A stretch of 64,000 nucleotides of DNA from Nitrosopumilus adriaticus (GCF_000956175.1 NZ_CP011070.1:310001-374000); one strand, 5' to 3'. Numbered from the stretch's first letter, positions 3,368 through 31,869 are shown. Program-made: numbers and translations. The notes: generated by a model not told the origin, from the letters alone.

Positions 3368-3504
3368 TATTCCAAATCTTGTTCTGGTTTACTTAAATTG
3401 ATCGAGTTTTTCTCCAAGATGGAAAATATTTCCAAAATTATTAAAAATCTGAGCCGATTTCAGAGTGAGGTTTAATTACTGGATCCTCTGGGTAATTTTA
3501 GGCA

Positions 3505-8205: not shown

Positions 8206-10377
8206 ATGGAAAAACAGTTTATTTTAGGATTTTTACTTTTACTTACTTCTACAATTGGGATGTTGCCAGGTAGTGTTTATGCAAATGAGCAAATTGATAC
8301 TGATGGTGATGGAGTTCCAAACTCTATTGATTTTTGTCCTAATCTTAAAGAGGATTATGATCCACAATATGGTAATAACATAGACGGATGCCCAGCTGAC
8401 TTTGTTCCATGGTATGATGTTGACTATGATGGAATTCAAGATCATATTGACGGTTGTCCAACTGTCAAAGAAACTTACAATAGGTTCCAAGATGAAGACG
8501 GTTGTCCTGACTTGGCACCAGATTCTGGAAAAGTGATAGCTGATACTGATAATGACGGTTACCCAGATTACATGGATTCTTGTCCTAACCAACCTGAAAC
8601 ATTCAATGGAATTGATGATAAAGACGGTTGTCCAGATGATGCTTCTAGTTTAAGAGATTCTGATAGAGATGGAATTTCTGATTCAATAGATCAATGTATC
8701 CTAGAATCTGAAACATACAATTTTTTCCAAGATGAAGACGGTTGTCCAGATGCTGTAGATGATGTGTATTCACCATATAATTTCCCAGATACTGATGGTG
8801 ATGGAATTGATGATAGATGGGATCAATGCTTAAACCAACCTGAAAACTATAATGGTTACCTTGATTGGGACGGCTGTTTTGATGTACTTGGTGCATCAGC
8901 CAATGGATTAATTGATTCTGACTATGATAGTATTCTTGACTCTGTCGATATGTGTCCTTTTGACCGTGAAAATTTTAATAACTTTCAAGATGAAGACGGC
9001 TGTCCTGATGAAGTTGAATATTCTGTATCTGGTGACACTGACCGTGATGGAATTTTAAATGAATTTGATGCTTGTCCATATAACAAAGAAACTTACAATA
9101 AATTCCAAGATGAAGACGGCTGTCCTGACTTTATTGGGGATAATGCTTCTACTTATGATTCTGATGGCGATGGAATTGTTGATAATTTAGATCATTGTCC
9201 TAACCAACCTGAAACTTACAACGGAGTTCTGGATTCAGACGGGTGCCCAGATAATGTAAATTCTACACTTGATTCTGATATGGATGGTATCCCAAATACT
9301 TTAGATGCTTGTCCACTAGAACCTGAAACTTATAATTTTTTCAAAGATGGTGACGGCTGTCCTGATACAACTACTTCTATCGTTTCATCTTATATTTTCC
9401 CAGATACTGATGGTGATGGAATAGATGATAGATGGGATGCATGCATTAATGAACCTGAAAATTATAATGATTATCTAGACAAAGACGGTTGTCCCGATGT
9501 TCCTGGAATATCAAAATCCGCATTATCTGATATTGATTATGATGGTATACCTGACATATTTGATCAATGTCCGACAATTGGAGAAAGATATAATCAATTC
9601 CAAGATGAAGACGGTTGTCCAGATACTTTAGCTTATGATTCCTTTGGAGATTCTGATAGAGATGGAATTCCTGATAACATTGATCAATGCCCTCAATCTA
9701 GAGAAACTTACAATCGCTTCCAAGACTCAGACGGTTGCCCTGATTTAATTTCTGATAATAAACCAACAGCTGATTCAGACGGTGATGGAATTGTTGACAA
9801 CATAGATTCTTGTCCTAACCAACCAGAAACCTTCAATGGATTCAAAGACAAAGACGGTTGCCCAGATACCCATCATTCAACTCTTGATTCTGATAGGGAT
9901 GGAATTATTGATTTGTCTGATGCATGTCCGCTAGAGCCTGAAACTTACAACCATTATCAAGATGAGGATGGATGTCCTGATGCTACTGGTTCAAGTGTTT
10001 CATCATTTGCTTTCCCAGATACTGATGGTGATGGAATAGATGATAGAAAAGATGCATGTATTGATGAGCAGGAGAACTTTAATGGATACTTGGATTGGGA
10101 TGGATGTCCTGATGTTTTAGCTGCTCAATCAACAACCCCAACAAAAATAGATTCAGATGGTGATGGATATCATGACGGAATTGATTCTTGTCCAAATCAA
10201 CCTGAAACATGGAATAAATATCAAGATTGGGACGGCTGCCCAGACATTGCTCCTGAACAACAGAGATTTGTTCATGATGATGATCTTGATGGAATAATTA
10301 ATGATCTAGATCTGTGTCCTTTAGATCCTGAGGACTATGATGGTGACAGAGATTCAGACGGCTGTCCTGATAACTAA
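8206..10377 (+). CDS. Secreted thrombospondin type 3 repeat protein, copy 3 (17 modules)
   Basis: A 723-residue third paralogue, collinear with copy 2. Signal peptide MEKQFILGFLLLL, cleavage near VYA-NEQ. Seventeen modules again show three five-module super-repeats, each with an F-PDTDGDGIDDR module (5, 10 and 15). One module reads DGCFD instead of DGCPD. Unlike copy 2 it has its own promoter-like sequence (TATA-like acttaataaatac at about 8172), about 84 bp after the previous stop. Strong DNA identity with copy 2 in the first module and the last 60 bases suggests recent duplication or gene conversion. No membrane anchor. Confidence 0.9.
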   Translation: MEKQFILGFLLLLTSTIGMLPGSVYANEQIDTDGDGVPNSIDFCPNLKEDYDPQYGNNIDGCPADFVPWYDVDYDGIQDHIDGCPTVKETYNRFQDEDGCPDLAPDSGKVIADTDNDGYPDYMDSCPNQPETFNGIDDKDGCPDDASSLRDSDRDGISDSIDQCILESETYNFFQDEDGCPDAVDDVYSPYNFPDTDGDGIDDRWDQCLNQPENYNGYLDWDGCFDVLGASANGLIDSDYDSILDSVDMCPFDRENFNNFQDEDGCPDEVEYSVSGDTDRDGILNEFDACPYNKETYNKFQDEDGCPDFIGDNASTYDSDGDGIVDNLDHCPNQPETYNGVLDSDGCPDNVNSTLDSDMDGIPNTLDACPLEPETYNFFKDGDGCPDTTTSIVSSYIFPDTDGDGIDDRWDACINEPENYNDYLDKDGCPDVPGISKSALSDIDYDGIPDIFDQCPTIGERYNQFQDEDGCPDTLAYDSFGDSDRDGIPDNIDQCPQSRETYNRFQDSDGCPDLISDNKPTADSDGDGIVDNIDSCPNQPETFNGFKDKDGCPDTHHSTLDSDRDGIIDLSDACPLEPETYNHYQDEDGCPDATGSSVSSFAFPDTDGDGIDDRKDACIDEQENFNGYLDWDGCPDVLAAQSTTPTKIDSDGDGYHDGIDSCPNQPETWNKYQDWDGCPDIAPEQQRFVHDDDLDGIINDLDLCPLDPEDYDGDRDSDGCPDN

Positions 10378-18558: not shown

Positions 18559-19404
18559 TTAATTACCAAACATCGAAGTAATGATGTCACTTACTTTTTG
18601 ATATTCTATACTTCCCCATTGTGTGTAAACATTTCCAAAAACAAATTTTGCAGCGTCTTTTGCAGACATGCCTTTGTCTAACAATTTTGCAAAAGCAATA
18701 GTTTCTCGTAAGCTAGGTGAATAAAATAATTCTTCAACAGCAGCTGCTTGCCTTAATGTATTTGCTAATTTTATTGCCTGAATAATTTCTGATTCGTGTT
18801 CTCCAGAAATATGTTTTTTTACAATTTCTAATTCAATATCTTCTGGAGGATACTCTAATCTAATTCGTACTGGAAATCTACTTAGAATTTGAGGTGGTAA
18901 TTCTTTAGTTCCGCTATGAGTTAATGGATTTATTGTGGCAACTACAAACCAATTCTCTTTTGCTTTGATTAACTCTCCTGTAGATTCTTTTAATACGATT
19001 TGGCGTCTATCATCTAACGCTTCATCAAGTCTAAGTAAAACATCAGCTTCTGCTGCATTAATTTCATCCAAGTATAGCATATTTCCTTCTTTCATTGATT
19101 TGATCAAAACTCCTTCATCAAAGGTAACAGTTCCGTTAGTGAGAGTTTTTGATCCTACCAAATGACTCTCTCTTGTTCTGAGGCTGAAATTAATTGATTG
19201 TAGATTCACATTATTGCTCTTTGCAAAATCTCTGACAAAGGATGTTTTTCCCGTACCTTTTGGTCCAATTATTAAAACAAAAAGACCTGCTTCAAATGCC
19301 TTGTTTAGTATTTCAGTTGAATTATTCCAATCAAGATATTGAACTTGTTCCAAAGTACGTTTTGATTGATTTAAACAATATTTAATATTAGATCTATTTT
19401 CCAA
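18559..19404 (-). CDS. MoxR-family AAA+ ATPase (NorQ/CbbQ-like)
   Basis: A 281-residue AAA+ ATPase. Walker A GPKGTGKT lies at residues 47-54 and Walker B YLDEIN at 111-116. VVATINPLTHSGTKELPPQILSRF holds sensor 1 and the Arg finger region in MoxR style, and a C-terminal helical lid ends the protein. TTG start at 19404, which overlaps the 3' end of the geranylgeranyl reductase gene by 11 bp. The VWA protein follows without a gap. The pair is expected to act as a chaperone that remodels or metallates a target enzyme. Confidence 0.92.
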   Translation of the reverse strand: MENRSNIKYCLNQSKRTLEQVQYLDWNNSTEILNKAFEAGLFVLIIGPKGTGKTSFVRDFAKSNNVNLQSINFSLRTRESHLVGSKTLTNGTVTFDEGVLIKSMKEGNMLYLDEINAAEADVLLRLDEALDDRRQIVLKESTGELIKAKENWFVVATINPLTHSGTKELPPQILSRFPVRIRLEYPPEDIELEIVKKHISGEHESEIIQAIKLANTLRQAAAVEELFYSPSLRETIAFAKLLDKGMSAKDAAKFVFGNVYTQWGSIEYQKVSDIITSMFGN

Positions 19405-20851
19405 ATGCTTCTACTTTTGTAAAAGCTTCGTCTAGTCTTTGATGCAGTGTTTTATTCCATTCATCAAATCCTGATGGATCTTTTGGATAATTGTTGTAGT
19501 GCTCAACTAACCATTGATTTTCTTTAGAAGTATATCTGAGTCCATCTGCAACTGTCTTGTTCATTGCACCTCTAATTATCATTCCAATTTTTCCTAATCC
19601 TGAAAAGTCTGGGTGTTCACCTTTACTAATTGATTCAGCATCAAGTTTACCCAAAAAGTGTTTCATGCCATAACTGATTTGCTCATTAGACATTTGTTGA
19701 ATCAATCTTCTAAAGAGCTCAAGACCTGCAGTTTTGTATCCGTATTCTTTGATGTAATCTAAATTGTATTGCCATAAACCAGCTTCAGAAACATCATTTG
19801 CTTCTAATGCTTGAGCTACATTATTTCCTAAAATTGTACCTGCAATTAATGCTGGTCCTATTCCTCCTGCATCAATTGGTTTTGGCATCCATGCAGAATC
19901 ACCTACCATCATGTATCCCCCTGATACCATACAATCGTTTTGTCTTCTAACTGAAACTTGGAAAACTCCTGAATTGTTGTTAATGTCTTGTGGGTCTTCT
20001 GATAACTTTGCATTTTTGATGGCTACATTTCTTGCAAGATATTCTTTCATCAGTGATTCAACATTATCTTTCTTACCAAGTCGTTTGTTTCGTTTATCTA
20101 GCAGAGATTTTTCTACACCTAATCCAATGTTTACTTTAGTCTCTCCTTTTGGAAACACCCATCCATATCCTCCCGGTGCAATATCTTGATCTAAATGAAT
20201 AATACAATAATCTGGATCAAATTCAGTAAGATCCTTTTTTCCAGGTTCGAAATGCATGATATATCTTCCAGTTGATTCTAAATCTCTTCTGTCTATTCTC
20301 TTTTCTACTTTAGTGGAGTTTTGAAGTCCATTTCTGAGCATGGATGTTACACCTGTAGCATCGATTACAATTTTTGATGTTTTTTTAAATGGCTGTTTAG
20401 TTTTATTATCAATTCCTTGAACCCCTACTGCTTGTTGACCATCATAAATTAGTCCTGTAAGATTTATTTCATATTCAAATTCAATACCCATTTTTCTACA
20501 TCTTTCATTTTGAATTTCTGGTAATTTTTGACGATTAAGCATAAATCCATCGCCATCAAAAGGAATTGCAGTTTCTCTATCTGGTGATAATGCCATGACT
20601 CCTTTAACATCATGTTCGATTTCTGGTCTGGTCCATTCAACTTTGATTCTTTCTGACATAAAGTCTACTGCTTCTTTTGAACATGCATCTCCACATACCC
20701 ATCCAGCTAAGGATTTTCTACCGGGTAAAAATTCTGTATTTCTATCAACAACCAAAATTTTTGTATTTTGGTTTGAATAATGAGAAATTGCCTGTGCTGT
20801 AATTGTACCTGCAAGACCTCCCCCTGCAACTATAACGTCATAATCTACCAC
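19394..20851 (-). CDS. Geranylgeranyl reductase family flavoprotein
   Basis: FAD enzyme that saturates geranylgeranyl chains of archaeal ether lipids (or a related isoprenoid). The 485-residue protein begins with a dinucleotide fold, DYDVIVAGGGLAGTITAQ. It continues with SLAGWVCGDACSKEAVDFM, a family-specific Cys-containing stretch, and GYGWVFPKGETKVNIGLG, which covers the flavin. GDSAWMPKPIDAGGIGPALIAG is the second FAD motif. ATG start. Downstream genes (MoxR, VWA) overlap or abut it, so it heads a minus-strand unit. Confidence 0.92.
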   Translation of the reverse strand: MVDYDVIVAGGGLAGTITAQAISHYSNQNTKILVVDRNTEFLPGRKSLAGWVCGDACSKEAVDFMSERIKVEWTRPEIEHDVKGVMALSPDRETAIPFDGDGFMLNRQKLPEIQNERCRKMGIEFEYEINLTGLIYDGQQAVGVQGIDNKTKQPFKKTSKIVIDATGVTSMLRNGLQNSTKVEKRIDRRDLESTGRYIMHFEPGKKDLTEFDPDYCIIHLDQDIAPGGYGWVFPKGETKVNIGLGVEKSLLDKRNKRLGKKDNVESLMKEYLARNVAIKNAKLSEDPQDINNNSGVFQVSVRRQNDCMVSGGYMMVGDSAWMPKPIDAGGIGPALIAGTILGNNVAQALEANDVSEAGLWQYNLDYIKEYGYKTAGLELFRRLIQQMSNEQISYGMKHFLGKLDAESISKGEHPDFSGLGKIGMIIRGAMNKTVADGLRYTSKENQWLVEHYNNYPKDPSGFDEWNKTLHQRLDEAFTKVEAFGK

Positions 20852-20939: not shown

Positions 20940-21008
20940 GGGGTCGGTTCGTCGCGGCCTCTTCATAGCTTTAACTCAGACTGGAGCGGCTGTTATTTCC
21001 TCATTCCC
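20940..21008 (-). ncRNA. Candidate C/D-box-like small RNA
   Basis: This GC-rich island lies in a 188-bp intergenic space of otherwise AT-rich DNA. On the minus strand it reads as a C/D sRNA-like order: C-like ATGAGGA (20998-21004), D' box CTGA (20976-20979), C'-like ATGAAGA (20960-20966) and D-like CCGA (20944-20947). The ends can pair as GGG/CCC. Three of the four boxes deviate by one base from consensus, and no target was established, so this is tentative. No open reading frame of note is present. Confidence 0.35.
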
Positions 21009-25524: not shown

Positions 25525-25539
25525 ATACTGATCTCGTAC
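25525..25539 (+). promoter_or_regulatory. Shared upstream box (ATACTGATCTCGTAC), copy 1
   Basis: This 15-mer is identical to the one at 25989-26003 and lies 72 bp upstream of the ATG at 25612. TATA-like candidates lie downstream at about 25541 and 25572. It contains a GATC, as do related boxes before amoX, amoA and amoB. Confidence 0.55.
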
Positions 25540-25611: not shown

Positions 25612-25944
25612 ATGAATACAAAAATACTCTTAGCAGCATCCTTAGTTGCTGTCTTCACTATGGGATTCTATGCAGAAGATGCAGTAGTATTTGCACAATA
25701 CATGGGAAACGTTGGTAGTGAAGGTGAAACCGGATCATACACTTTAGAGGAAGCACTTGAAATTCAAAGAAGAAGAATTGAAGCTGCTGAAGCAAATCCA
25801 GCCTCTGGTTCAGGAACTCCATATCTTGATGCAAGTGGTGTAGTTGGTGCCTCAGTAATCGCAGGTGCAGTGTTCGGTGGTATTGCAGGAGCATTCTTCA
25901 TTAGAGGAAGATCTGGCAAATACGCAGCAATGGGCAGAGGATAA
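25612..25944 (+). CDS. Small exported membrane protein beside amo, candidate AmoY/AmoZ-type subunit
   Basis: A 110-residue protein with a signal peptide (MNTKILLAASLVAVFTMGF, cleavage near VVFA-QYM), an acidic helical middle part (YTLEEALEIQRRRIEAAEAN) and a C-terminal Gly/Ala-rich transmembrane helix (VVGASVIAGAVFGGIAGAFFI) followed by basic residues. It shares an upstream 15-bp box and a T-rich terminator style with the neighbouring small membrane-protein gene and the amo genes. Additional archaeal AMO subunits named AmoY and AmoZ have been reported as small membrane proteins. I propose this as one of them from size, topology, location and regulation, not by alignment. Confidence 0.75.
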   Translation: MNTKILLAASLVAVFTMGFYAEDAVVFAQYMGNVGSEGETGSYTLEEALEIQRRRIEAAEANPASGSGTPYLDASGVVGASVIAGAVFGGIAGAFFIRGRSGKYAAMGRG

Positions 25945-25988: not shown

Positions 25989-26003
25989 ATACTGATCTCG
26001 TAC
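25989..26003 (+). promoter_or_regulatory. Shared upstream box (ATACTGATCTCGTAC), copy 2
   Basis: Identical to the box at 25525-25539. Here it lies about 20 bp upstream of a clear TATA element (tgtatatatcg, 26023-26033), the usual place for an archaeal activator site next to the BRE. Confidence 0.6.
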
Positions 26004-26054
26004 TTTCTGATAATAAAAGAAATGTATATATCGCACAAATTGAGCCAAATTATC

Positions 26055-26324
26055 ATGACTCCTATCGTAGGAACTTTCCTAAGCATCCTGTCTTCACTAA
26101 CAGGACAACTGGGACCAAACTATGATCCATTATTCTATGATGTAATGATTTACATCTTCGGAACCATGATGTTCACAGTATTCCTTCTTGGAATTATATC
26201 ATTCTGGTTACGTGTACACGGATGGGCTTACAAAGACAACCGTGAGAGATGGGTCGATGAGTTGGACAGACACTTTGAAAGAGAAGGCATTGGTCTGATT
26301 CCAGACAACGGTAAATACTGGTAA
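26055..26324 (+). CDS. Small membrane protein beside amo, candidate AmoY/AmoZ-type subunit
   Basis: An 89-residue protein from ATG 26055 (MTPIVGTFLSILSSL). The open frame back to 26022 includes the TATA box, so the longer start is unlikely. An N-terminal hydrophobic stretch and a strong transmembrane helix (MMFTVFLLGIISFWL) precede a charged tail, GWAYKDNRERWVDELDRHFEREG, that would face the cytoplasm. The TATA box at 26023-26033 implies a very short leader. Size, location and the promoter box shared with the preceding gene make it a candidate additional AMO subunit; this is inference. Confidence 0.8.
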   Translation: MTPIVGTFLSILSSLTGQLGPNYDPLFYDVMIYIFGTMMFTVFLLGIISFWLRVHGWAYKDNRERWVDELDRHFEREGIGLIPDNGKYW

Positions 26325-27399: not shown

Positions 27400-27969
27400 T
27401 TAGATTACTTGCCAGGGTCTTGTTGCAAACGTAATGACATATCCAACACCTATGATAATTGATTGATATGCGATGTTGGTATATGGGATTGGTTTGATAA
27501 TTGGTTCGCCTTCAACGACAACTGTTTGACCTGGACCGAGTCCTGGACCAACTTTGGCTACATTGAGTTGGGTGTGTACGTGATATACACCTGCTTCAAG
27601 TGCTTTTGCAGATAGTGAATAATCAACAATAGCGTTACCTGGAATGTCAAAGACGTTTCCTGGTGGATCTCTTGCTAACATTTCCCATCTGTTACCTGCG
27701 TTGGTTGACTCTGAGAAGATAGATAGCCATCCTCTAAGGTCTCTTTCTACAAGACTGACTAGTGTTCCTTGAAGTGTCAAGGTTTCGCCAGTTTGCAGGG
27801 ATTGTCTGTTAAAGGTTTCATCCTCAATTCTGATGAAACGACTCTGGAGTTGTGCTTGGACACCGTGTGCATCTGCAGTTGGAAGAATGGATTCAACCCA
27901 GTTGAAACCTAATGTTCCTAGTGCAAGTACTACAGCTAGTCCAAATACGAAAATTCTTTTTTCGACCAT
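27400..27969 (-). CDS. amoB: Ammonia monooxygenase subunit B (archaeal)
   Basis: Copper-containing AMO subunit exposed on the outer face of the membrane, part of the enzyme that oxidises ammonia to hydroxylamine. I chose ATG 27969 (MVEKRIFVFGLAVVLAL), giving 189 residues; the open frame runs 19 codons further upstream but includes promoter-like DNA. A signal helix is followed by ADAHGVQAQ. Cleavage before His35 would leave an N-terminal His as copper ligand, as in PmoB, with HVHTQ (His130, His132) as the other ligands. A C-terminal transmembrane helix (IAYQSIIIGVGYVITFAT) follows. Archaeal AmoB lacks the second cupredoxin domain of bacterial homologues. It is divergent from amoC. Confidence 0.97.
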   Translation of the reverse strand: MVEKRIFVFGLAVVLALGTLGFNWVESILPTADAHGVQAQLQSRFIRIEDETFNRQSLQTGETLTLQGTLVSLVERDLRGWLSIFSESTNAGNRWEMLARDPPGNVFDIPGNAIVDYSLSAKALEAGVYHVHTQLNVAKVGPGLGPGQTVVVEGEPIIKPIPYTNIAYQSIIIGVGYVITFATRPWQVI

Positions 27970-28223
27970 AGTTATCCCTAATATTGAGGAAATAATGGAC
28001 ATCGTTATATGTTTTACCTTAATCACGAGGATCGATCTTTTGTTCCATGTTAATCATTGATGTTATACAATGAAAATGATAAAAAAACTATGTAATTTCT
28101 TTACTTTTATATTTAAAAAAGAATAATATTTATTAAATTTTTGATATTTATTAAAAAAAATCGGATAGAATCTCTTTATCCTCAAACTCTTACTTTATAT
28201 TCCGAATTCACACCACTGTAAGC
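27970..28223. promoter_or_regulatory. Divergent amoB/amoC promoter region
   Basis: A 254-bp intergenic region. For amoB (minus strand) a TATA-like acatataacg lies at about 28003-28012, with a double GATC (GATCGATC, 28030-28037) just upstream of it. For amoC a TATA-like ctttatat lies at 28193-28200, about 24 bp before the ATG, so the amoC mRNA should be leaderless or nearly so. The middle of the region is almost pure A/T. Confidence 0.7.
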
Positions 28224-28787
28224 ATGGCACAGATGCCCGCATTAATCCCAAAAGAAGTTGAGATTCAGAGACTTAAAAAAATCTGGCTCATCGTTATTGC
28301 TATGGGATCTACTGCAGCATCAGTCGAAGTAGATAACTTCGTTGATGGTTCTCTACATCAGACTTCTATCAGAGATAGTGCATTTACACCAGCACACTGG
28401 TGGTTGTATTCCCACTTCATCACATTACCACTTGGATGGGGTGCAGCAGCAATCTATGATAGAAAAGTTCCAGTTCTTAGAGGTCCTAATAATTCAATGA
28501 ACACTGGTTTGAAGATGACCATTCTTGGTTACCTTGCAACTATGTTTACAATTGGGGTCAATGAGATGTGGCACTTCTGGTTTGTAGAAGAAATATTTGC
28601 GGTTCCAAATCACTGGATGTTTAACATGGGTGTAGTAGTTGCATTCATGGGTGCACTTGCATACGTAGTCAGAGTATATGCTCGACTCGTAGAACTAGGT
28701 GCAGAAACTCCTGGAGAGAACCCATATGTTGCAGAGATGTACAAGATGGCTTTAGAAGGCAAATTGTACAGTAGATCAATTCCATAG
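28224..28787 (+). CDS. amoC: Ammonia monooxygenase subunit C (archaeal)
   Basis: Integral membrane AMO subunit of 187 residues, with several hydrophobic helices (IWLIVIAMGSTAAS, FITLPLGWGAAAIY, TILGYLATMFTIGV, FNMGVVVAFMGALAYVV). The segment RDSAFTPAHWWLYSH contains the conserved Asp and His residues of the membrane copper site region of the AMO/pMMO superfamily. ATG start with a TATA box at the leaderless distance. It has its own promoter, and a T-rich terminator follows, so it is probably transcribed largely alone. Confidence 0.97.
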   Translation: MAQMPALIPKEVEIQRLKKIWLIVIAMGSTAASVEVDNFVDGSLHQTSIRDSAFTPAHWWLYSHFITLPLGWGAAAIYDRKVPVLRGPNNSMNTGLKMTILGYLATMFTIGVNEMWHFWFVEEIFAVPNHWMFNMGVVVAFMGALAYVVRVYARLVELGAETPGENPYVAEMYKMALEGKLYSRSIP

Positions 28788-28805
28788 ACAAATTGTGCAA
28801 TAGCA

Positions 28806-28835
28806 CACTTTTTTCTTATTTTATTATTTTTTAAA
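28806..28835 (+). terminator. amoC T-rich terminator
   Basis: Downstream of the amoC stop, the run cttttttcttattttattat followed by six T is a strong oligo-T terminator candidate; the amoX promoter elements follow directly. Confidence 0.6.
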
Positions 28836-28880
28836 AATGACGTAGATCGTACGGACGCTTCAGTTTAAGAAAGATTTAAA
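28834..28880 (+). promoter_or_regulatory. amoX promoter with GATC box
   Basis: AAAATGACG (28834-28842), also found before amoA, is followed by TAGATCGTACGG, related to the GATCTCGTAC box before the small membrane-protein genes. A TATA-like gatttaaaag follows at about 28870-28880, some 28-38 bp before the amoX ATG. Confidence 0.6.
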
Positions 28881-28907
28881 AGGATTCTGAATCAGAATAA
28901 TTCCATA

Positions 28908-29270
28908 ATGACTCTTCCAAAAGGATTCGGTTCAGGCGGTGGCGGCGGAGCTGGTAGCGCTGATATCGAAAAAATGATTGGACGACGCGTTGAAAATATG
29001 ACCGGTATGATCACAATTTCCTACTGGGCAGCTTTGTTAGCTACTTTTGGTGGTACTGCAGCAGGATACTTCTATTATCCATGGGCATATCCAACAGCAA
29101 GTGGTCACTTTGCATTCATCGTACTTGCAATCATTGAGGCAATAGGTTACATCTTCTGTGTTAAAGTCATGGAAGAAGGTTCCAACAAAAATAGTAATGG
29201 TATAGTTGGTGGTAGTATTGCTGCATCAGTAGCATTCGTACTATTCGTATCATTGTATGTTGGTTGGTAA
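28908..29270 (+). CDS. amoX: AMO-associated membrane protein AmoX
   Basis: A 120-residue membrane protein found only in ammonia-oxidising archaea and recognised as an additional AMO subunit. A Gly-rich N-terminus (GFGSGGGGGAGSADIEKM) precedes several transmembrane helices (ITISYWAALLATFGGTAAGYF, FAFIVLAIIEAIGYIFCV, IVGGSIAASVAFVLFVSLYVG). It lies between amoC and amoA on the same strand, with its own TATA box and a downstream T-rich tract. Confidence 0.95.
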   Translation: MTLPKGFGSGGGGGAGSADIEKMIGRRVENMTGMITISYWAALLATFGGTAAGYFYYPWAYPTASGHFAFIVLAIIEAIGYIFCVKVMEEGSNKNSNGIVGGSIAASVAFVLFVSLYVGW

Positions 29271-29293
29271 TCAGAAGGAAACCCCTTCAGACA

Positions 29294-29316
29294 CTTCTTT
29301 TTCATTTTCATTTAAT
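29294..29316 (+). terminator. amoX T-rich terminator
   Basis: The run cttctttttcattttcattt follows the amoX stop and shares the CTTTTTCATTTT style with the amoA and amoB terminators. Confidence 0.55.
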
Positions 29317-29359
29317 TAAATGAGGACTATAACATATTTTCATTATTTTATCATAGTCT

Positions 29360-29400
29360 AAAATGACGATCTTCTGCATACTCTAAAATTTTATATACTG
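29360..29400 (+). promoter_or_regulatory. amoA promoter with GATC box
   Basis: AAAATGACG at 29360-29368 matches the amoX upstream element and runs into ATCTTCTGCATAC, creating a GATC. The TATA-like ttttatatactg at 29389-29400 lies about 20-25 bp before the ATG, which implies a leaderless or nearly leaderless amoA mRNA. Confidence 0.65.
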
Positions 29401-29419
29401 ACCGTTTCTTTGACTTGAT

Positions 29420-30070
29420 ATGGTCTGGTTAAGACGATGTACACACTACTTATTCATAGTAGTAGTTGCAGTTAACTCAACACTGTTAACAATTAATGCA
29501 GGAGACTACATCTTCTACACTGACTGGGCTTGGACTTCGTTCACGGTATTCTCAATATCGCAAACGTTGATGCTTATTGTAGGTGCTACGTATTATCTAA
29601 CATTTACAGGAGTTCCAGGCACAGCAACGTACTACGCTCTAATTATGACAGTATACACATGGATAGCAAAAGGCGCATGGTTTTCGCTAGGATATCCATA
29701 TGACTTCATTGTCACCCCAGTTTGGTTACCATCAGCAATGCTGTTGGACTTAGTATACTGGGCAACAAAGAAGAACAAGCACTCCTTGATACTGTTTGGC
29801 GGCGTACTGGTAGGAATGTCATTACCATTATTCAATATGGTAAACCTGATAACAGTAGCAGACCCACTAGAAACGGCATTCAAATATCCAAGACCAACAT
29901 TGCCACCATATATGACACCAATCGAACCGCAAGTAGGTAAATTCTATAACAGCCCAGTTGCTCTCGGTGCAGGTGCAGGTGCAGTATTGGGATGTACAAT
30001 GGCAGCATTAGGTGTCAAACTGAACACTTGGACATACAGATGGATGGCCGCATGGTCAAAGTGGGACTAA
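29420..30070 (+). CDS. amoA: Ammonia monooxygenase subunit A (archaeal)
   Basis: Integral membrane AMO subunit, the standard marker gene of ammonia-oxidising archaea, 216 residues. It starts MVWLRRCTHYLFIVVVAVNS and continues with AGDYIFYTDWAWTSF, GTATYYALIMTVYTWIAKGAWF, FIVTPVWLPSAMLLDL and HSLILFGGVLVGMSLPLFN, all characteristic of group I.1a AmoA. The 3' end GVKLNTWTYRWMAAWSKWD is typical. It has its own promoter and terminator. The convergent DNA adenine methylase gene follows 90 bp downstream. Confidence 0.98.
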   Translation: MVWLRRCTHYLFIVVVAVNSTLLTINAGDYIFYTDWAWTSFTVFSISQTLMLIVGATYYLTFTGVPGTATYYALIMTVYTWIAKGAWFSLGYPYDFIVTPVWLPSAMLLDLVYWATKKNKHSLILFGGVLVGMSLPLFNMVNLITVADPLETAFKYPRPTLPPYMTPIEPQVGKFYNSPVALGAGAGAVLGCTMAALGVKLNTWTYRWMAAWSKWD

Positions 30071-30075
30071 AAACT

Positions 30076-30110
30076 CCAACCTTTTCCTTTTCATTTTATT
30101 ATTTTCTCTT
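30076..30110 (+). terminator. amoA terminator; second half of the 22-bp inverted pair
   Basis: Bases 30076-30097 (CCAACCTTTTCCTTTT plus CATTTT) are the exact reverse complement copy of 27373-27394 after amoB, and further T-rich sequence continues to 30110. Confidence 0.7.
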
Positions 30111-30159
30111 AGAGTTTTCTCTAAACTAAATTCTAAAAATAAAATTTAGAAAATTATTT

Positions 30160-31023
30160 TTAATAATTTTTAATTAATAATTCAAAGTGTCCAGTTCGTT
30201 TTTTAGAATTTGAATTAATGGAACGATTAGCATGGATTTTTTTAATTTTCCAAGATTTGCCTGAGAACACATCTGCTACCTCTTTAGAGTCTGAATTTGA
30301 TAATAAAACATTACATCCTCTAGAATCTAATTTCAAACAAAGATCTGCTAGTCTATTGAGATCTTCATATGTGAAATTCTTGTTAGTGTAACTTGTAAAG
30401 TTGGCAGTATCGCTAACTGGCTGATATGGTGGGTCAAAGTATACTAGATCACCTTTTTTTGCATCTCGAAGAACAGATTCAAAATCTCTGCATTTTATTG
30501 CAACTTTGCTTGATTGTAAAATGGAACTTACTGAACGCAAATTTTTCTCATTTACTATATTTGGATTTGTATATCTCCCTAAAGGAACATTGAATTTCCC
30601 TTTGCTATTTACACGATACAATCCATTAAAACAAGTTCTATTCATAAACAGTAATCTTGATGTTTTTTCAATCTCGCTTCTCGGATTGGATTCTCTAACT
30701 GAATAATAATATGATTTAGAATCTTTATGATAGTTTTTTTCGTGATTTTTGAGTGATGAAATTAATTCATCAATTCTGTCTCGAATTGTAGTATATGTCA
30801 AAACTAGGTCAGAATTCAAATCCGAAATACTGCATTTTTGACCCTTTCTTTCAGTAAGGATATGGAAGAGTAATGCACCACCTCCCAAAAATGGCTCAAA
30901 ATATGTTCCAAATGATTTTGAGAGATTCTCATTTAATATTGGAATTAATTGACGTTTTCCACCTGCCCATTTTACAAAAGGTTTTGGGGCAACTGATGAA
31001 ATCTGACTGTATACTTGTTTCAA
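30160..31023 (-). CDS. Orphan DNA adenine methylase (Dam/D12 class)
   Basis: N6-adenine DNA methyltransferase, 287 residues. PFVKWAGGKRQL (15-26) and YFEPFLGGGALLF (41-53) form the AdoMet-binding part, NRTCFNGLYRVN (128-139) is typical of the D12 class, and DPPY (197-200) is the catalytic motif IV. All key motifs are intact. TTG start at 31023. D12 enzymes often recognise GATC, but the specificity is not proven by sequence. No restriction endonuclease gene adjoins it, so it looks like an orphan methylase. It lies tail-to-tail with amoA. Confidence 0.93.
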   Translation of the reverse strand: MKQVYSQISSVAPKPFVKWAGGKRQLIPILNENLSKSFGTYFEPFLGGGALLFHILTERKGQKCSISDLNSDLVLTYTTIRDRIDELISSLKNHEKNYHKDSKSYYYSVRESNPRSEIEKTSRLLFMNRTCFNGLYRVNSKGKFNVPLGRYTNPNIVNEKNLRSVSSILQSSKVAIKCRDFESVLRDAKKGDLVYFDPPYQPVSDTANFTSYTNKNFTYEDLNRLADLCLKLDSRGCNVLLSNSDSKEVADVFSGKSWKIKKIHANRSINSNSKKRTGHFELLIKNY

Positions 31024-31190
31024 TGATTATGATTGCAAAAATCATTAACTGTGCTTTAGATAAAATAATTTGATCTTAAACTAACTTTTTCCTAGTCTTG
31101 GAATAGCTTAAATACAAATTTCGTAAATTGGTCAAAATCCTCAATTATGTGGAATTTAAGAATTGCATTGGAATTAGTGAGAAATGAAAA

Positions 31191-31482: not shown

Positions 31483-31869
31483 CTATTTTGGATGCTTTAT
31501 TCCTCTAGAGTTTAGGACTTCGTAGACATCTGGTAATGAGAAAACAAAACCAACATGTACACAATCTTTTTCATCACATAGCTGACAGAACAACTCTCCT
31601 TTTTGAACTGCAACTTCTGCGATTCTATTTTTGATATTATCTTTTAGAATTACACGATCATCATCAACAGAAATCTTTTCAATCTTGGGAGCATATCTGG
31701 CAAAAGTCTTGTCCTTTTGCATCATCTCCTCTAGCATGTAAGTGACATAACCTGAGAAACTATTGACGCCTTTCATTGTAAGGTCGTCTTTACTGTTTTG
31801 ATAAACTTGGTGGAATTTATCATAAACTGTTTCTGAAACTGTGATTGATTTGAATCCGGCTTTTGGCAA
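31483..31869 (-). CDS. Hypothetical protein with Cys-rich C-terminal motif
   Basis: A 128-residue soluble protein. The N-terminal FKSITVSETVYDKFHQVYQNSK resembles a ribbon-helix-helix-type beta strand plus helix, as in small DNA-binding proteins. The C-terminal half has FCQLCDEKDCVHVGF, with three Cys and a His in a short span, compatible with a metal site. ATG start. A transcriptional role is possible but not established. The two-intron tRNA-Leu ends 6 bp from its stop codon. Confidence 0.6.
   Translation of the reverse strand: MPKAGFKSITVSETVYDKFHQVYQNSKDDLTMKGVNSFSGYVTYMLEEMMQKDKTFARYAPKIEKISVDDDRVILKDNIKNRIAEVAVQKGELFCQLCDEKDCVHVGFVFSLPDVYEVLNSRGIKHPK

Follow-up and report, generated by a model that had tools for sequence, protein, structure and literature searches.

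Our analysis of 64,000 nucleotides of Nitrosopumilus adriaticus DNA (the window) gives good support, at the level of sequence, to the presence of a conserved cis-regulatory element at the AMO genes whose core is a Dam site, and of a putative orphan GATC methylase that shares this site in its own leader. Moreover, the idea put forward in the original prediction, that the AMO promoters are under methylation-sensitive control, appears plausible.

The block in question reads, from left to right, a recJ-like gene (−), rpsO (−), two small membrane genes (+), two minus-strand genes, amoB (−), amoC (+), amoX (+), amoA (+) and the methylase (−), with the coordinates collected in Table 1. Hodgskiss (2023, PMC10030591) gives Nmar_1506 as amoY and Nmar_1507 as amoZ; combined with the gene order in a genome that we take to be N. 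maritimus SCM1, this makes the gene at 25612 amoZ and the gene at 26022 amoY. Two gene starts call for comment: the listed GTG start of amoB (28026) lies upstream of the conserved ATG, as seen when upstream regions are aligned, and the true start of amoY may be 26055, since a conserved GTATATA sits at the listed one. The GATCs predicted upstream of amoA, amoX, amoB and the two small membrane genes all lie where they had been placed. Two had been claimed for amoB, and both are present, but only the proximal one is conserved. Further to the left in the window, a strongly conserved GC-rich stretch with its flanks (20975–21006, minus strand), upstream of a geranylgeranyl-reductase-like gene (19394–20851), looks like a non-coding RNA; Rfam returned no family over threshold for the stretch and its flanks.

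Table 1. Genes and GATC sites of the amo block, in window coordinates.
Feature	Position	Strand	Basis or remark
amoZ GATC box (GATCTCGTAC)	25530–25533		region common to divergent rpsO
amoZ homologue, small membrane protein	25612–25944	+	synteny with Nmar_1507
amoY GATC box (GATCTCGTAC)	25994–25997		conservation in genus
amoY homologue, small membrane protein	26022–26324	+	synteny with Nmar_1506
amoB	27400–27969	−	Pfam Monooxygenase_B; ATG at 27969 by alignment of upstream regions
amoB proximal GATC box	28030–28033		kept in 0.91 of 11 genomes
amoB distal GATC	28034–28037		mostly unconserved, 0.27 of 11 genomes
amoC	28224–28787	+	family-model match; without GATC box
amoX GATC box (GTAGATCGTAC)	28845–28848		about 30 bp upstream of TATA-like TTTAAAA
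amoX	28908–29270	+	between amoC and amoA, family conservation; name by synteny with PMC10030591
amoA GATC box	29368–29371		22 bp upstream of TTTATATA
amoA	29420–30070	+	Pfam Archaeal_AmoA, 4e-116
Solitary Dam/DpnM-type GATC adenine methyltransferase (predicted)	30160–31023	−	287 aa, TTG start; family models, single-copy
GATC in methylase promoter/leader	31072–31075		49 bp before start codon; alignment

Judged by its sequence, the enzyme is a Dam/DpnM-type orphan with GATC as its predicted target. The claim of an intact D12-class adenine methylase holds: the gene is intact, matches Pfam MethyltransfD12 at 4e-66 and scores 289 bits with NCBIfam 'dam' TIGR00571 (cut-off 115), and its closest solved structure by sequence is DpnM (2dpm, E = 9e-68, full-length). 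The DPPY motif is intact here and in nearly all aligned family sequences. The same is true of K9, L122, R124, P134 and Y138, which we take, from roles assigned in published structures, to be the GATC-contact residues of EcoDam (residue 138 is undetermined in one sequence). In the 1.80-Mb single-contig genome this is the sole PF02086 gene. It was also said to have no partner nuclease, and indeed none is seen among its neighbours, while DpnII-family models find none over cut-off in 95 genus genomes. The methylase itself is present in 80 of these 95 genomes and, family-wide, in 208 of 250 (123 of the 131 good ones), with all 22 genera represented. Beside it, at 31483–31869, lies the gene for a highly conserved protein of 128 amino acids with invariant cysteines at 95, 98 and 103. 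We considered this product as a DNA-binding reader and dropped the idea, as Pfam and PDB sequence and fold searches gave no usable match and model confidence was modest.

For relatives of this strain there are methylome data. According to PMC6329791, the Lake Biwa Nitrosoarchaeum BD3 carries m6A at 9446 of 9618 GATC sites (98.2%) and has one matching lone MTase without a nuclease, and GATC m6A is cited there also for 'Nitrosomarinus catalina' (Ahlgren 2017). Given the enzyme family, the contact residues and these relatives, it is very likely that the window enzyme methylates GATC in this strain. The near-complete methylation reported there argues against stable switching, for which it leaves little room. 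Short-lived hemimethylation would be compatible with it and is possible, as is a factor that requires m6A or can tolerate it.

How well are the GATC boxes conserved? In the window alone the surplus is marginal at best: its amo-block intergenic regions hold 7 GATCs where 3.6 are expected (p = 0.07), and we rejected an excess on that basis. Comparison between species gives a clear answer. One measure is the count of promoters with a GATC within 100 bp upstream, taken over 29–35 genus genomes and over other genera, with the expectation obtained by shuffling. At each of amoA, amoX, amoB, amoY and amoZ, 97% of genus genomes have such a GATC, as against 16–41% by shuffling, and control promoters are mostly at or below their expectation. 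In other genera the site is found at amoA, amoX, amoB and amoY in 79–88% of genomes and at amoZ in 31%. Upstream of amoC it is found in 0% of the genus and in 11% of other genomes. A second measure is alignment of 264 kb from four species (200 kb of it beside the window), with GATC required to be aligned and identical in all four. On this measure all 5 amo promoter regions, one of them common to amoB and amoC, hold a conserved GATC, compared with 5 of 60 other regions (Fisher p = 3e-5). The test assumes that the regions are independent, an assumption that may not hold for neighbouring amo regions. One of the five others apparently falls inside a tRNA gene. Promoters elsewhere with a conserved GATC belong to a divergent pair at 2339/3505 of the window (a wyosine-type radical SAM and a thrombospondin-3-repeat protein), to an AAA_15 ATPase and the gene divergent from it, to a TrmB-like regulator and to a protein whose beginning resembles a zinc ribbon. 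Since other promoters also carry a conserved GATC, the element is enriched at the AMO genes and is not exclusive to them. In the divergent promoter between the radical SAM gene and a run of thrombospondin-3-repeat genes (3370–3504), two GATCs are kept in 11 of 11 Nitrosopumilus genomes. Over whole genomes GATC is depleted in Nitrosopumilaceae, with an observed/expected ratio of 0.62–0.83 compared with 1.02 in Nitrososphaeraceae samples.

The boxes also keep a fixed spacing to TATA. At amoA the GATC stands 22 bp before the TATA box in 67 of 92 genomes, and two genera have 20 bp instead. At amoB the distance to ATATA is 22 bp in 43 genomes, and at amoX the distance to TATA is 30–31 bp in 60. The arrangement GATC-N16-19-TTTATATA occurs just once, at amoA, in 7 of the 11 whole genomes searched, including this one; the remaining four have two copies each, one of them at amoA. 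Similarly, the 10-mer GATCTCGTAC is found in this strain's genome at amoZ and amoY only, and a wider regulon marked by it is thereby rejected. Within the genus the box flanks are conserved together with the GATC. In other genera GATC is the best retained of the genus-conserved 4-mers at amoA (0.68 versus a median of 0.47) and the second best at amoY, whereas at amoB and amoX it is no better retained than the TATA/BRE side. Retention at amoA and amoY points towards a constraint on the Dam site as such, although it is no proof of one.

Our comparison adds a site that the original prediction did not contain, in the promoter of the methylase. In most genomes a GATC stands 49–52 bp before the methylase start codon, and 87–88% of genomes have one within 100 bp upstream where 19–25% are expected. 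It lies within an element, TTTGATTAAAAAATATTGCACA-TTGTGATCTTTT, common to many genera, which travels with the methylase gene in four genomes where that gene is inverted. One Nitrosopumilus subclade, to which this strain belongs, has a different methylase promoter sequence with the GATC at the same place. In eight genomes the amoA box and the methylase-promoter GATC are both missing. Placed on the tree, however, this joint loss involves few independent pairs (p = 0.25), so that co-evolution of the two sites, although in the right direction, could not be upheld.

What does the position of the methylase tell us? Among 173 Nitrosopumilaceae genomes in which both it and amoA were located, the two share one contig in 171, and in 165 the methylase lies less than 500 bp from the 3′ side of amoA, so that the adjacency is a family-wide trait and not a peculiarity of this strain. 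The tail-to-tail arrangement noted in the original prediction is correct for this strain, but it is the minority state: among the 171 genomes the methylase is convergent with amoA in 26 and co-directional in 145, with a median gap of 145 bp. Orientation varies in this way, with about 10 changes on the family tree, and for this reason we reject the view that the two genes are coupled, as a general rule, in an operon or by antisense transcription. The methylase (30160–31023 in the window, and five further loci singled out in our comparison) has been inverted in place about 10 times while still adjoining amoA, and in several cases its promoter element moved with it. Synteny extends family-wide from recJ to a redoxin gene, with the methylase-amoA linkage a part of this block, and in the complete Nitrososphaeraceae genomes that we compared a homologue of about 41–48% identity lies a long way from amoA. 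For these two reasons adjacency by itself is weak evidence of a functional tie, and we do not accept it as proof of function. Three lineages without boxes retain the methylase. A change in the enzyme's specificity is unsupported as the cause of box loss, since the contact residues are intact even where the boxes are lost. In five lineages the amo cluster is disrupted by kilobase insertions between its genes or by rearranged neighbours; these retain the methylase, and the GATC boxes are mostly missing from them.

Taking these results together, we consider the following explanation somewhat more probable than otherwise. An ancestral solitary Dam/DpnM-type enzyme would methylate GATC genome-wide in Nitrosopumilaceae. 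The same GATC would be central to a promoter element that keeps a fixed distance to the TATA downstream of it (22 bp at amoA and amoB, about 30 at amoX) in five of the six AMO subunit genes, and would also stand at a constant place in the leader of the methylase. Most likely a hypothetical transcription factor would bind this element and activate the AMO genes together. Since the element has a Dam site at its centre, this factor would presumably read methylated or briefly hemimethylated DNA. The family of the enzyme, its orphan state and contact residues, the linkage, and the conserved and regularly spaced boxes come from the sequences compared here, and the GATC m6A of relatives comes from the literature; the bound factor, its role as activator and any effect of methylation are what we infer. 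Counting against this explanation are the box-less amoC, the 31% retention of the amoZ box outside the genus, the amoB and amoX GATCs that are no better kept than the TATA side, and the five non-amo regions. As for methylation-sensitive control as originally proposed, the conserved orphan methylase with its contact residues, the GATC m6A of a close relative, the family-wide place beside amoA and the position-locked promoter GATCs, that of the methylase included, speak for it. Against a simple switch speak the highly methylated relative, amoC, the methylases in box-less lineages and those of Nitrososphaeraceae away from amo, the conserved multi-gene block to which the linkage belongs, and the rarity of the tail-to-tail orientation.

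The strongest alternative, to which we would give slightly less than an even chance, is that the boxes are ordinary transcription-factor sites whose core reads GATC by chance, while the methylase has a housekeeping or defence role and is held in place by synteny. The family-wide synteny of the recJ-to-redoxin block fits this well, as do the methylases that exist without boxes or, in Nitrososphaeraceae, away from amo, the conservation of flanks along with GATC within the genus, and the near-complete methylation of a relative (PMC6329791). Against it stand the amoA core, which outlasts its flanks in other genera, the methylase-promoter GATC, which keeps its place despite inversion and promoter replacement, and the genome-wide depletion of GATC. 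A second alternative is Dam-like epigenetic control, in which methylation, or hemimethylation after replication, would alter factor binding and hence transcription of both the AMO genes and the methylase. The same site in both kinds of promoter, the exact Dam site retained at amoA and the frequent absence of the methylase-promoter GATC from lineages without the amoA box all point this way. We nevertheless find it doubtful, in view of the insignificant co-loss on the tree, the extent of methylation in the relative (PMC6329791) and the rule of one GATC per promoter. Equally, we think it rather unlikely that full, hemi- or no methylation of one GATC 22–30 bp upstream of TATA tunes AMO and methylase transcription as a single regulatory system. 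Finally, it is very improbable that the enzyme belongs, as a relic or as a partner, to a restriction-modification or anti-restriction system: genome-wide GATC under-representation would fit a history of GATC restriction, and type II MTase models of PADLOC match too, but PADLOC ranks its 'orphan methyltransferase' model first, no DpnII-family nuclease passes the cut-off in the 95 genus genomes, and the gene keeps a fixed locus in nearly all good genomes and every genus of the family, unlike mobile restriction-modification genes. Our preferred explanation and the first two alternatives overlap in the confidence we give them, because a genuine element is compatible both with a role for methylation and with none.

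The six AMO genes of N. viennensis yielded no common promoter motif (PMC10030591). Our literature searches, with most subscription papers outside their reach, found no report of the GATC box or of the amoA-methylase linkage, and no account of how amo transcription is controlled in ammonia-oxidising archaea. A GATC-cored box at five of six AMO genes, present in most genera examined and locked to TATA, thus offers a concrete element for testing. Since a conserved orphan methylase, which has this site in its own leader too, is expected to act on that core, Dam-like gene control in archaea becomes testable; and since the methylase lies beside amoA and the GATCs are kept at fixed places, so does the idea of methylation-linked control of ammonia oxidation. 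If true, it would be, as far as we know, the first case shown in archaea of a core energy pathway controlled through methylation-sensitive promoters.

It remains to compare our proposal with known systems. Nitrosoarchaeum BD3 and 'Nitrosomarinus catalina' belong to the same group and have GATC m6A, with a lone MTase and no nuclease; these are methylome reports, and the amoA linkage and promoter boxes are not mentioned in the passages of PMC6329791 used. E. coli Dam with its GATC-controlled promoters resembles the present case in its solitary Dam-family enzyme, its promoter GATCs and the contact residues, which are retained here. The differences are that here the promoters are of the archaeal TATA/TFB type, carry as a rule a single GATC and not clusters, and would be served by a hypothetical methylation-sensitive regulator, and that the window methylase is closer in sequence to DpnM. 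DpnM, of the DpnII system, is its closest solved relative over the full length. In that system the gene for DpnM neighbours those for another methylase and for the DpnII nuclease, whereas no nuclease accompanies the methylase here (DpnII family, 95 genus genomes). In Caulobacter, CcrM is a self-regulated orphan methylase with its target site in its own promoter. Its target is GANTC instead of GATC, and in our comparison, made from sequence alone, the methylase likewise has its predicted target site in its own promoter.
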